This document shows, piece after piece, positions 1-10,538 of a stretch of 64,000 nt of DNA. Source of the DNA: Pedobacter steynii. GTDB lineage: Bacteria; Bacteroidota; Bacteroidia; Sphingobacteriales; Sphingobacteriaceae. The notes under the pieces are model-generated. The model was not told the origin of the DNA, did no database searches, and was given only the letters and a program-made list of their open reading frames with translations. The DNA lies in the NCBI RefSeq assembly GCF_001721645.1, contig NZ_CP017141.1:1798001-1862000 (forward strand), read 5' to 3'. The position numbers and the translations under genes are program-made. Within the stretch, counting starts at the first letter, position 1; every line of letters begins with the position of its first letter.

Positions 1-1
1 T

Positions 2-115
2 AATTTTAAGGACCTTTTTAAGCATAACAGTAAAAGCCCATTTTATGCTTTTCTGATTGCGCAACTGTTCAATGTGATCATTACTTTAATTGTAGCCTTC
101 TTTTTGTTTGGTTAA
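2..115 (+). CDS. C-terminal end of an unidentified membrane protein (partial)
   Basis: An open frame enters from the left edge and ends at a TAA at 113-115, giving the last 37 residues of a protein. The tail is hydrophobic from about its residue 16 (AFLIAQLFNVII, then a stretch of V/A/F/L) and ends FFLFG, so it looks like a final transmembrane helix. The family cannot be named from this much. It stops 28 bp before the sigma-54 promoter of the next gene, and the inverted repeat at 20-50 lies inside it. Confidence 0.55.
   Translation, partial: NFKDLFKHNSKSPFYAFLIAQLFNVIITLIVAFFLFG
20..50. promoter_or_regulatory. Inverted repeat, candidate enhancer site for the sigma-54 activator
   Basis: Perfect 8-bp arms AAGCATAA (20-27) and TTATGCTT (43-50) are separated by 15 bp. 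The centre is about 134 bp upstream of the transcription start predicted from the sigma-54 promoter at 143-158, a usual distance for NtrC-type activator sites. Its role as an enhancer is inference; the repeat lies inside the end of the upstream coding region. Confidence 0.35.
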
Positions 116-142: not shown

Positions 143-158
143 TGGCAGGTTACTTGCT
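143..158 (+). promoter_or_regulatory. Sigma-54 (RpoN) promoter of the histidine kinase gene
   Basis: TGGCAGGTTACTTGCT fits the -24/-12 consensus TGGCACgnnnnTTGCW at every defined position but one (C to G at the sixth). The GG and GC dinucleotides have the required 10-bp spacing. The predicted start of transcription is near 169, twelve bases before the ATG at 181. The convergent neighbouring gene encodes a sigma-54 activator, which makes the site more credible. Confidence 0.75.
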
Positions 159-2729: not shown

Positions 2730-4058
2730 TTATTCTATTTCATAACGCTCCATTTTACTGTATAGGGTCTTACGATCTATATTCAGTAATTTGGCAGCCT
2801 TGGATTTATTGTACTTCACCTTTACTAGAGTTTCTATAATCAGCATCTTTTCATTTACCTCATTTATGGCTTTAAGATCAGAGCCATTTGGTTTCGGAAT
2901 CTGGTTAATAGAGATGATCATTTCTTCCGGTAAAGAATCCACTTCCGCAGTTTCCGAGGGAGTCAGCAGTACCATTCTTTTGATCACATTCTTTAACTCC
3001 CTTAAATTTCCAGGCCAGTCATATTGAAGTAAAAGATCTTTCGCCTGTTGGGATAAATTTTGCACATTTCGTTGTAACTCCGTATTGGAAAGCCTGATGA
3101 AATGATTAATGAAAAGCTCGATGTCTTTACCCCTGTCCCTTAATGCGGGAAGCTGAATTTTGAATTCATTTAAACGATGGTAAAGGTCTTCCCGGAAAGA
3201 ACCATTGGCCACACTTGTTTTAAGGTCGTCATTGGTTGCGGTAATGATCCTTACATCTACTTTTATCGTTTTTGTACTACCTAGAGGCTGGATGATGCGC
3301 TCTTGTAAGGCACGTAACATCTTTACCTGAACTTCATAGCTGAGATTTCCTACTTCATCCAAAAACAAGGTGCCTCCGTTGGCCGCTTCAAACTGGCCTT
3401 TTTTATCTGTCAGGGCGCCTGTAAATGCACCTTTGGCATGTCCGAATAGCTCACTTGCTGCCAGATCTTTAGATAAGGCACCACAATCAATTGCGACGAA
3501 GGGTTTATCTTTACGCTTGCTTTGCATGTGGAGTGCTCTTGCGGCATATTCTTTACCTGTTCCGCTTTCTCCCTGAATGATCACCGACATGTCGGTTGGG
3601 GCAACCAGGTTAATGTGTTCGTATAATTTATCAGCAATACTGCTTTTTCCTTTGATAGCGTCTCCATGTTCAATAGAAGGGCCTGAACCTGGGCTTTCTT
3701 TTTTGCCCAGGGAGTTGTTGATGATCATCAGCAATTCGTCCGGATTCACGGGCTTGGTAATGTAATCGAATGCTCCTAACTGGATTGATTTTACCGCAGT
3801 TCTTACATCATTGAAACTGGTCATGATAATGACCGGCAGGTTTAGTCCTTTTCCACGTACATGAGATAATACATCCAGCCCTGTTCCGTCAGGTAAACGA
3901 TAATCTACCAATAAAAGGTCAAAACTTTGCTGTTCTATCAGTTTTAGACTTTTTTTTACATCATTCACCGGGATGGGTTCATGACCATGTTTGGTCAGAA
4001 AACCTTCCAGTAACTGCGAAAAAGTGAGGTCGTCTTCAATAATCAGTATTTTTGCCAT
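2730..4058 (-). CDS. Sigma-54-dependent response regulator (NtrC family)
   Basis: Enhancer-binding transcription activator of 442 residues. The receiver domain (1-120) has acidic pocket ED-D at 8-10, phospho-acceptor D52 (VDYRLPDG) and the lysine of TKP near 102. The central AAA+ domain (about 140-370) has Walker A GESGTGKE, the sigma-54 contact loop GAFTGA and Walker B GTLFLDE. A C-terminal Fis-type helix-turn-helix ends the protein (NKSKAAKLLNIDRKTLYSKM). I chose the ATG at 4058 because an upstream ATG at 4106 would place the -7 promoter element (4082-4089) inside the gene and would add 16 residues before the conserved receiver start. It is convergent with the kinase, with no terminator between them. 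It probably receives phosphate from that kinase's HPt domain and activates the kinase's own sigma-54 promoter; that link is inference. Confidence 0.93.
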   Translation of the reverse strand: MAKILIIEDDLTFSQLLEGFLTKHGHEPIPVNDVKKSLKLIEQQSFDLLLVDYRLPDGTGLDVLSHVRGKGLNLPVIIMTSFNDVRTAVKSIQLGAFDYITKPVNPDELLMIINNSLGKKESPGSGPSIEHGDAIKGKSSIADKLYEHINLVAPTDMSVIIQGESGTGKEYAARALHMQSKRKDKPFVAIDCGALSKDLAASELFGHAKGAFTGALTDKKGQFEAANGGTLFLDEVGNLSYEVQVKMLRALQERIIQPLGSTKTIKVDVRIITATNDDLKTSVANGSFREDLYHRLNEFKIQLPALRDRGKDIELFINHFIRLSNTELQRNVQNLSQQAKDLLLQYDWPGNLRELKNVIKRMVLLTPSETAEVDSLPEEMIISINQIPKPNGSDLKAINEVNEKMLIIETLVKVKYNKSKAAKLLNIDRKTLYSKMERYEIE

Positions 4059-4089: not shown

Positions 4090-4117
4090 CAAAAGCCGGA
4101 GGACATCCGGCTTTTGT
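4089..4117 (-). terminator. Hairpin terminator after the small secreted protein gene
   Basis: A perfect 12-bp stem, ACAAAAGCCGGA and TCCGGCTTTTGT, closes a 5-base loop. In the minus direction it lies 31 bp after the stop of the 4149-4460 gene and is followed by a T-rich run (TATTTTTG) that is also the promoter -7 element of the next gene. Confidence 0.7.
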
Positions 4118-4148: not shown

Positions 4149-4460
4149 TTACTCAATAACTGCACCTTCTTTAGATAATTTTAAAGAAGCAGTTTCTTCT
4201 CCTTTTTTGGCATCGATCTGATAGTATTCAGATTTATCTGCTTTAGTTACTAAAAATGCGGCAGTTGGAGTCCACTCTTTATATTTGTCAGATGCTAATG
4301 TTGTTTTAACTGCATCAGGAAGATCTTTCAATTCAACCGGAGCCTTTGTTACACTGTCCTGTTTTACAGTAACCATTACTGGATTTTTAACGTCACTTGC
4401 TTTTACCTGAGTTAATCCTACGAATGCTAAAATTGCTGCTGATAAGATGATCTTTTTCAT
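4149..4460 (-). CDS. Small secreted protein, possibly PepSY-like
   Basis: A 103-residue protein with a clear signal peptide (MKKIILSAAILAFVGLTQVKA); an ATG at 4580 upstream is less likely because it would precede the signal peptide by 40 residues. The mature part has the pattern LPDAVKTTL, KEWTPTAAFLV, YYQIDAKKG and a C-terminal LSKEGAVIE. This resembles the short periplasmic PepSY-like/DUF2874 proteins of Bacteroidota, but that assignment is a pattern impression. Its position beside the two-component system may mean it is a target or sensor partner; nothing in the sequence proves this. Confidence 0.75.
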   Translation of the reverse strand: MKKIILSAAILAFVGLTQVKASDVKNPVMVTVKQDSVTKAPVELKDLPDAVKTTLASDKYKEWTPTAAFLVTKADKSEYYQIDAKKGEETASLKLSKEGAVIE

Positions 4461-4740
4461 AATTCTATATTTTAAAAATTTATTATTCTGTTGTGATTGT
4501 GCTGAGATAGATTTCATAATGATGCCAGAATAGCGAAAAGTGGGCAAATGGCTTATAATCAAAGGAAAATGCGCCTTCACTGAAAAAATACTGTTGCGTT
4601 ATTCCACACTTTGTTGTGGAAAGAAACAGATGGCTCAGGCGTAGAAGAGACTTTGTTTTGGTAAGGTATAGTTGTATTATCTTACGAGTTTCGTACAAGT
4701 ATCATGCGATATCGCGCTGGGTCTTCCCTGACTCAGAGTT

Positions 4741-8015: not shown

Positions 8016-10538
8016 TTAGCATACTGTGACCAATAATTTATGAGGTATTTTTCTTTCTTCCATAAAGCATAAACGTTCGTATTTGTATTCGTTTACCTTT
8101 ACCGGGTCTTTCAGGTCTTTAAAAATGGCAATAATGACATCATACATCATAATGCAATTCAGATTGAGTTCATTTCTTTTAAAAATCTGAATGCACTCGT
8201 TTGAATACTCATAGGCAAGTACATACTCTCCTCTGTTTCTGAGTTGGTTTGCCTGCATCATCCTTAAAATAGATTCGGAATATTCAGTTAGCTTAAAGCG
8301 TGTTTTGTTATTGTGGATCTCGACCAATATATGTTCTATCTGATCGGTTTTCTTGCCCGGATTTACCTTTGAACTTGATAAGGCAAAAACGTTCATCATA
8401 AAAATAGTAAACGCTGTTCGTTTTGAGAATACACGCGGATGTAATTTGGAAATGGTCCTGATAATGTGGATTGTTCCTTCATCACTACCATAGAACGTAT
8501 TGAGGATTAGTAGTAACACATAAGCTATTCCTTGCTTGGTGTCAAGTACTGCTTTCGTTTCTAAGAAAGTATAATTGAAACTTTCCAGGTCCTGAATAAT
8601 AGGATGTGATTCAACGGTTTTGTTGCTTAGTTTAAGATAGATTAACCAGGTTAGCTCATATGGATTTATTGGCCATCCTTTAACATCTAAGGCGCTTAGT
8701 TTGTTTAATCTCATGGCTACCCGCTCCTGGTCCATACTCATGATGTCAAAAATGGCGAGGATAGATTGATAAATTAAACGATTTTCATCGGTATCAGCCA
8801 CATCTGCAAGAACAGTTACTGCCTCTTTATAACAGGAATCCACAAAATCAAAGTTAATCAGTTGTTTGATGAGGATGTCATGAAGCTTATGGTCAGTCAG
8901 CAGTTTGATGGTATCCGGACTGTAACGTGCACGGAACCTCAGATTCTCTGCAATGAAGAGAATGAGGTAATTTCGCTCAAAATAGTTCAGTTGCAGATCG
9001 AAAATATGAGAGAGGGATCTGAAATCACCAATTCGTATGATAAAGCGAATGGTCCACTGTAAAAGATGGAACCGGACATTATTGCTTTCGTAGGAACTTT
9101 GGATGAACTGAAAGAAAGTCCAGTCTACCTGCAAATGGAATTTTTCCAGCAATTCGATAAACAGGAAGTACTCAAATATATGAGGATAGATGAAACGGAC
9201 ATATTCTCTTGGTTGATAATCATCATGGCTTTTTTCTTCCATCAGGATACCCTCTGATAAAAGCTCCATGTATGCATTTTTAAATGCCGATAGTTCGCCG
9301 ATTAAAAGATCTTTTGGTACGGAATCTATTTTTTTACCATAATCGGTTAGCTGAATCACTTTTTTGAGAAAGAGAATTTTCTCGGTATAATAATTTGACC
9401 TGTAAATCTTTTCCTGGATAAACCTGGAAATCAGCTCATGAAAAGTGATGCTTGTAGAATAGTTAAAATACGGATCTTCTTCTTTTAGCTGATAGTACAG
9501 TTGTATATATAAAGGAAATTTTAATTGAGATTTAAGCTTTGGATTTAATTCATAGACATCTGAATGGTTAATTTTGCAGATAATCTGATCTACCTCTTTA
9601 CCAGTCAGAGGAGGAACATTAGACACTTCATTTTGGTTGAAGTAGTTTCCTGTAAACCATTTGGATTTTAAGAATGCAGAGTGTCTGATACAGTCGTAAA
9701 ATCTCATCCAGGTTGTAGACCGCATACTCATCACCAATTTAATGCAGTCTATATTTTCAATAGAACAAATAAAACTGATGATGCTTTCAAAAAGTTGTTT
9801 CTTTAAATCTTTTTTGATGATAAGTTCTGAAAATCCGTCCAGCATAATGATGAACTTCTTTCCGGTCATACTGTAATTCTCCTGGATATGTTCGAGTAAG
9901 CTCTCTTTGTGGTAAATGCCCAATTGCATTTTGAGCTGGTCCTCGAAATTCAGGGTAATTTGATCCGCATTAAAAAAGCTGTTTGCTGTAATAAACATTA
10001 CAGTAGATTCTTTTTGAGCAGAAGATTCGTTATTAAAGAATTTTTCTACTAAATGGCTGAGAAGAATTGTCCTTCCGTAACCGGGTTGTGAAATAAAACA
10101 GGTATAAGTATAATTGCTTTTAAAGAAGTCATCAAAATCATGTTCCGCAAATTTTCTGCTGATGGTCATTTCGTAAGGGATACCAGAACGATTTTTTATT
10201 CCTTTCAGCGTGAAGTCTGTGATTTTTCTGGCATTACGCCGGATATCAGTCCAGTTAGTAGCACTTTCCTGTACATTTAAATGTACAGGGGCAGCCCAAC
10301 TTCCAACCTGTTCCTTATTGACATATTCTGATAATGTGGTCAGGGTAAATTTTGAAAAGTTATGTTTTACCACTGCAAATCCAAACAACCTTTTGATGGT
10401 TGTCTCACTTACATTCTTATTTAGTGTTTTACTGATTTCAATGGAGATCCTTTTACAATCAGCAGGAGTGATGGTTCGAATTCCTGTTTTTAATAGGATT
10501 AGACTCTTTACTTCATTTAAGGTAGATATATCGTCCAT
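8016..10538 (-). CDS. STAND/NACHT-like regulator with altered Walker A
   Basis: An 840-residue protein without signal peptide. The N-terminal 75 residues (ITPADCKRISIEI, SETTIKRLFGFA, FTLTTLSEYV) match a helical, probably DNA-binding domain seen at the N terminus of many Sphingobacteriaceae proteins. A P-loop NTPase region follows, with Walker A-like SQPGYGRT at 150-157 and Walker B-like FIIMLDGFSE with D234; the aspartate followed by G-F-S-E is NACHT-like. The invariant lysine is arginine (R156) and the first glycine is serine. The remainder (about 330-840) is helical and looks like TPR-type repeats. It is divergent from the giant adhesin operon 304 bp away, so it may regulate it. A defence role is possible but unsupported. 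Confidence 0.7.
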   Translation of the reverse strand: MDDISTLNEVKSLILLKTGIRTITPADCKRISIEISKTLNKNVSETTIKRLFGFAVVKHNFSKFTLTTLSEYVNKEQVGSWAAPVHLNVQESATNWTDIRRNARKITDFTLKGIKNRSGIPYEMTISRKFAEHDFDDFFKSNYTYTCFISQPGYGRTILLSHLVEKFFNNESSAQKESTVMFITANSFFNADQITLNFEDQLKMQLGIYHKESLLEHIQENYSMTGKKFIIMLDGFSELIIKKDLKKQLFESIISFICSIENIDCIKLVMSMRSTTWMRFYDCIRHSAFLKSKWFTGNYFNQNEVSNVPPLTGKEVDQIICKINHSDVYELNPKLKSQLKFPLYIQLYYQLKEEDPYFNYSTSITFHELISRFIQEKIYRSNYYTEKILFLKKVIQLTDYGKKIDSVPKDLLIGELSAFKNAYMELLSEGILMEEKSHDDYQPREYVRFIYPHIFEYFLFIELLEKFHLQVDWTFFQFIQSSYESNNVRFHLLQWTIRFIIRIGDFRSLSHIFDLQLNYFERNYLILFIAENLRFRARYSPDTIKLLTDHKLHDILIKQLINFDFVDSCYKEAVTVLADVADTDENRLIYQSILAIFDIMSMDQERVAMRLNKLSALDVKGWPINPYELTWLIYLKLSNKTVESHPIIQDLESFNYTFLETKAVLDTKQGIAYVLLLILNTFYGSDEGTIHIIRTISKLHPRVFSKRTAFTIFMMNVFALSSSKVNPGKKTDQIEHILVEIHNNKTRFKLTEYSESILRMMQANQLRNRGEYVLAYEYSNECIQIFKRNELNLNCIMMYDVIIAIFKDLKDPVKVNEYKYERLCFMEERKIPHKLLVTVC

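Follow-up and report, generated by a model that had tools for sequence, protein, structure and literature searches.

In Escherichia coli, ZraR peaks lie upstream of both zraP and zraSR, as given in the accessible part of PMC7657598. The locus analyzed here, from the soil bacterium Pedobacter steynii, is like ZraPSR (HydHG) in that a sensor kinase is combined with an NtrC-type activator and a small periplasmic protein is predicted to be under sigma-54 control, as suggested by a dyad plus TGGCAY module before the gene for a small secreted protein (sml). It differs in several respects. The kinase is a hybrid with a receiver and a probable Hpt domain, and its gene is convergent with that of the activator; a TAnnTTTG box precedes the activator gene, and the kinase gene shows no activator site that we could recognize; the small protein belongs to a multigene family and is PepSY/BLIP-like. 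With 375.7 bits against the ZraR model, whose cut-off is 760, the activator does not qualify as a ZraR equivalog. The locus would thus work in a manner resembling ZraPSR, and membership in that system is not supported. Our main reading, to which we assign a probability of about 0.65, is a ZraPSR-like phosphorelay acting via a sigma-54 activator on secreted proteins, the kinase promoter being probably RpoN-driven and its activator not settled. The window, i.e., the whole stretch of 64,000 nucleotides that was analyzed, corresponds to positions 1798001-1862000 of a single-contig 6.58-Mb genome.

The hybrid sensor kinase gene (196-2727, + strand) encodes HisKA, HATPase and receiver domains recognized by Pfam, followed by a weak C-terminal Hpt match (20.7 bits, cut-off 24.6). 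Two membrane helices with a helical region between them were distinguished by eye, and the sensor region was modelled as helical with modest confidence (mean pLDDT 66). The initial annotation had the gene start at ATG 181, 12 bp behind the predicted transcription start. Comparison with relatives did not bear this out: ATG 196 was taken instead, since in five of six close relatives an in-frame stop lies within 30 bases upstream, the sixth having no ATG at the place of 181. Counted from the predicted +1 at 169, the leader thus measures 27 nt. Upstream, positions 1-115 (+) hold the 3' end of a YeiH-type putative transporter gene (PF03601, assigned on L040:8796-10115), which scored 92.7 bits against the NCBIfam YeiH model, below the cut-off of 232.6; the gene at this place differs in other clades (by eye). 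In one genome, the kinase orthologue (G149:C1:770942-771938) is broken by several stops.

The neighboring gene (2730-4058, - strand) encodes an NtrC-type sigma-54 activator with a receiver, an AAA+ domain with GAFTGA, and a Fis-type HTH. The matches to PF00158 (228.7 bits) and HTH_8 (44.9 bits) together with GAFTGA at residue 210 identify it as a bacterial enhancer-binding protein. As the initial annotation had stated, it lies convergently 2 bp past the kinase gene, the stop codons occupying 2725-2727 and 2732-2730. Kinase and convergent activator occurred together in all 30 further loci of the genus that were retrieved (the activator gene of L083 is cut off by the contig end, and in L096 the two are about 1.4 kb apart), and the pair was also present in one other genus (L101). 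The ordinary promoter claimed for the activator gene was found as well: the housekeeping -7 box TATTTTTG is located at 4089-4082 (- strand), and TAnnTTTG lay no more than 100 bp from the activator start in 28 of the 29 orthologues read. This box agrees with the proposal that sigma-54 control would be limited to the kinase arm of the pair. A terminator-like hairpin with a T-run (4090-4116, -) separates sml from the activator gene, and a similar hairpin was seen by eye in most of the activator-locus orthologues inspected. The genome encodes eight full-length sigma-54 activator domains and one copy of rpoN, whose product contains the RpoN box ARRTVAKYREQMNIPV; RpoN was found in 58 of the 59 genomes searched, so its presence does not discriminate. 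Elsewhere in the window, an 840-aa open reading frame (8016-10538, -) contains, as judged by eye, a stretch resembling a P-loop.

Directly upstream of the activator gene lies sml (4149-4460, -), encoding a 103-aa secreted PepSY-like/BLIP-like protein that is a likely activator target, judging by its conserved position, its paralogues and its fold. A protein search revealed three paralogues elsewhere in the genome. No Pfam match was obtained for sml, and PepSY-like is a name that we presume to suit the family. The structural model (pLDDT 85-91 over residues 41-100) matched 3u1w with an E-value of 2.5e-4, the sole entry below 0.001, and further 4k61, 4hbr and 4fr9 (E 0.006-0.025, TM 0.58-0.61 by query length). 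All of these are Bacteroidota periplasmic DUF2874/BLIP-like structures, among which the fold match to 3u1w places sml. All 32 genomes in which the kinase matched strongly (E below 1e-50) also had sml, compared with one of the 27 others. Genome G006, whose assembly is 84% complete, carries sml with a one-mismatch dyad and TGGCAY and has no kinase match.

In the window, sml is preceded by the -24-like element TGGCATCATTATGAA (4513-4527, -), with the -12 GC off canonical spacing, and by the degenerate dyad TGTGGAATAACGCAACA (4592-4608, -), a likely activator enhancer with two mismatches to TGTRGA-N5-TCYACA. Exact dyads of this sequence precede all three sml paralogues. The strict dyad occurred at five places in the genome (of 16 by a looser pattern), two of them within genes and three intergenic, and these three lie 145-146 bp upstream of the three paralogues. 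The genome thus holds a four-member family (the window copy, L153, L154 and L157), each with a dyad and GGCAY at fixed spacing. Among 79 distinct sml upstream regions, 54 had both the dyad and the TGGCAY element, spaced by 81, 82 or 83 bp (20, 25 and 9 cases, respectively); TGGCAY alone was found in two, the dyad alone in two, and neither in 21, all of which belong to later copies in tandem arrays. In many relatives, sml genes form such arrays with the dyad module before the first gene alone. Whereas the dyad spacing is constant, TGGCAY lies anywhere between 56 and 121 bp from the sml start codon. The 54 members were selected by pattern, which inflates conservation at the pattern positions; that pattern did not include the narrow spacing or the CA preceding the dyad, and where two dyads were present the one nearest to 82 bp was taken. 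Taken together, these data make the dyad TGTRGA-N5-TCYACA before sml genes the likely DNA site of the activator. In the neighborhoods of the other activators of the same genome, an sml-type element was encountered merely as a two-mismatch match across one activator start.

The -12 half of the sml elements is not canonical. In the 54 pattern-selected members, G stood at position 13 in 83% and at position 14 never, so that the GC expected there is lacking. It is consequently the -24 half, together with the dyad and its spacing, that speaks for a sigma-54 nature of these elements. The usual G follows GG by nine bases, and by apparently ten in the L238 and L101 copies (by eye). An inverted GTGCCA 14 bp before NGGCAY was also noticed by eye at the three paralogues L153, L154 and L157 and at two copies in G002 (L220, L221).

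Promoters of an HlyD/ABC export operon, beside which a second activator of the genome sits (L246-L262), served as a positive control and provide a set against which sigma-54 motifs of the genus can be calibrated. This operon shares with the locus analyzed here an activator alongside, a -24/-12 element and dyads about 80 bp upstream, and differs in having the canonical GG-N10-GC/GT and another dyad (TGTYCG...). All 17 sequences read from the genus, that of the genome itself among them, keep GG-N10-G(C/T), the base after G being C in ten and T in seven. All seven T belong to clade F, where GT replaces GC in seven of eight sequences, so the GT of the clade-F kinase elements is also seen where the promoter architecture is fully sigma-54-like. 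A fixed RpoN difference behind the clade-F GT was looked for (12 versus 15 genomes) and none was found; the idea is also weakened by the occurrence of kinase GT in other clades and by the HlyD GC kept in G002. For 16 of 17 sequences, a script put the TGT start of the nearer HlyD/ABC dyad 78-80 bp ahead of TGG; in the seventeenth, where the script took a second TTGGCATA, correction of the anchor by eye gave 79 bp. In L244:7123-12033, kinase and activator genes are divergent from the HlyD/ABC operon and two TGTYCG-type dyads are present.

The near-perfect sigma-54 promoter that the initial annotation had proposed in front of the kinase gene is present at 143-158 (+ strand) with correct spacing, and it is conserved in the closest relatives. 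Its sequence, TGGCAGGTTACTTGCT, matches TGGCA-N6-TTGCW exactly, with GG and GC ten bases apart, and differs from the consensus TGGCACG-N4-TTGCW at one of 12 positions. By convention, transcription from sigma-54 promoters starts about 12 bp past the -12 GC. The element is thus probably an RpoN promoter of the kinase gene, with a start predicted near 169. It shares with canonical sigma-54 promoters the -24 TGGCA, the -12 TTGCT and their spacing, and it deviates from them in having G for C at position 6 and no enhancer that we could find; the consensus appears as TGGCACN5-7TTGCT in the portion of PMC12316311 available. A housekeeping promoter for the kinase gene was rejected, TAnnTTTG being found in just five of 36 kinase upstream regions and not conserved. 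The suggested genome-wide search for the same promoter returned 23 exact matches on both strands (nine with the pattern written backwards). Four matches, as judged with mechanical open reading frames, were intergenic and pointing at a gene, namely L019 (the 143-158 element itself), L020, L022 and L027. With one mismatch allowed, the pattern was not enriched in the window (13 found, 11.1 expected). By count alone, the exact match is only mildly unusual, barely above chance.

Conservation makes the case that the element is more than a chance match. The closest named relatives by kinase were Pedobacter caeni, P. steynii and others. The block GATMATGGCAGGYTMCTTGCTGKTCWA was kept in the window and in six named Pedobacter genomes (7/7, own included), and across these seven 14 of the 16 motif columns were invariant, including all ten consensus columns. 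This exceeds the flanking intergenic columns, of which 9/27 and 10/37 were invariant, and the third codon positions of the upstream gene (18/119). An impression from a first scan of 29 orthologues that the motif was private to its own genome was overturned by the six closest named genomes, and the wider genus search bore out its presence beyond them. The kinase turned up there in 135 of 145 genomes; 92 upstream regions, own included, were read, and the exact pattern was detected in 11, own included, six of which resemble the upstream regions of the six named genomes, probably coming from the same species. Genome G111 keeps the block despite a different upstream neighbor (by eye).

Other clades carry TGGTAYRTTATTTGT, TAGCAYRCTTTTTGY or TGGAAYAATACTTGT upstream of the kinase gene. 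A score of at least 10 out of 12 against the canonical consensus was reached by 30 of the 92 regions (Markov expectation 0.4%, reversed pattern 2/92, antisense 0/92), one of them, G148, outside any clade block. A score of at least 9 was reached by 45 (Markov 5.9%, reversed 6/92, antisense 1/92) and was absent from the other 47. As controls, rrf2 attained 10 in one of 11 upstream regions and the activator gene 9 in two of 29. A loose block, T(G/A)G-N-A-N6-TTG(C/T), chosen after the clades had been seen, was present in 57 of 92 regions (antisense 0/92, backwards 1/92); among the 81 regions without the exact motif, 46 thus carry a diverged -24/-12-like block. Even the loose block was missing from 35 of 92, and the clade of G013, G018, G019, G023 and G024 had neither it nor a score of at least 9. 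The 92 regions are related rather than independent, their effective number being a handful of clades.

The initial annotation had further proposed that the kinase phosphorylates the neighboring activator and that the activator in turn acts through RpoN at 143-158 to turn on the kinase gene, a self-amplifying loop in which kinase level could switch sharply. The conserved sigma-54-type element and the conserved convergent pair speak for such a loop, as do the ChIP-exo peaks of ZraR upstream of its own zraSR (PMC7657598, accessible part). The expected enhancer is lacking. A weight matrix was built from the 54 sml dyads, which themselves score 19-35; a dyad scoring at least 12 was absent over 500 bp from 35 of 36 kinase upstream regions, including that of the window, whose best score was -5.0 (median of the 36, -4.7). 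The exception was L048 (G014), with a dyad scoring 19.1 that lies within the upstream gene, at another distance; in the sister of this genome, L047 (G029), the score was below -0.4. Dyads scored upstream of rrf2 in four of 11 cases were put down to an intergenic region shared with sml. Nor did any run of conserved columns stand out over the 260 bp preceding the block in 33 of 34 anchorable clade-F sequences, the anchor pattern itself fixing the block. Action of the adjacent activator on the kinase gene is thus not supported, its dyad standing at the sml genes and not at the kinase, and this weakens the sigma-54 reading of the kinase element without excluding it. Some sigma-54 promoters work without an upstream activator site, and sigma-54 activators can function even where they have no specific site. 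We regard the loop as possible, though rather doubtful. The kinase promoter may instead be RpoN-dependent and fired by one of the seven other activators, a different signal then setting the kinase level. The eight sigma-54 activators of the genome and the absence of the cognate site at the kinase despite the conserved -24/-12 would fit this suggestion; against it, no site of another activator was found at the kinase, and HlyD-type TGTYCG dyads were not conserved there (by eye). It is, like the loop, a tentative proposal.

Two further readings do without RpoN. The block could be an unrecognized type of promoter, an operator, or the start of a leader peptide beginning with ATGGCAGGT. The missing enhancer, the many orthologues with a diverged block or none, and the ATG at the beginning of the block, which opens a frame of 7-14 codons (translated by eye), are compatible with this. 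None of the ten consensus columns varies, as against two of the six spacer columns, and TTG is kept at the -12 place in other clades, which argues against another element; a leader peptide is disfavored by the codon pattern, with a second-position change and most third positions kept (by eye). Such an element is, in our judgment, unlikely. Least credible is a match by chance without function. The 19 of 23 exact genome matches outside a promoter position and the lack of enrichment with one mismatch are what chance would produce; conservation in 11 of 92 orthologous upstream regions, own included, among them one where the gene upstream is a different one, makes this explanation very improbable.

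In the preferred reading of a ZraPSR-like phosphorelay, a signal would reach the helical membrane sensor of the hybrid kinase, and phosphate would pass from the kinase His to Asp, to the probable C-terminal Hpt and on to the convergently encoded activator. The activator would then bind the dyads and turn on the secreted PepSY-like proteins, presumably through RpoN. These may have a periplasmic role, perhaps with feedback on the sensor; ZraP feeds back on ZraS. The kinase gene itself would be RpoN-driven from 143-158 with a start near 169, fired either by the cognate activator without a recognized site or by another of the eight. A bolder version, which we consider improbable as a whole, joins these elements differently: in much of Pedobacter, the sensor gene would be RpoN-driven from an enhancerless -24/-12 element, its own activator would run the PepSY-like family through an enhancer module of rigid geometry, from promoters with sigma-54 spacing one base short, and kinase supply would be set by another activator.

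Sigma-54 regulons in Bacteroidota seem little studied. On their sigma-54 promoters, the literature offered a cross-phylum survey (PMC12316311), in the available main text of which the word Pedobacter does not occur. A literature search largely without subscription papers found no paper combining Pedobacter, sigma-54 and a response regulator, and a Porphyromonas two-component paper (PMC3764172), in whose accessible text DUF2874 is mentioned, was consulted with regard to sigma-54 but not drawn on. The locus offers a concrete, testable regulon of one activator, one dyad and one gene family, plus a probable sigma-54 promoter of the kinase gene. If true, control of the kinase by another activator would link two circuits.
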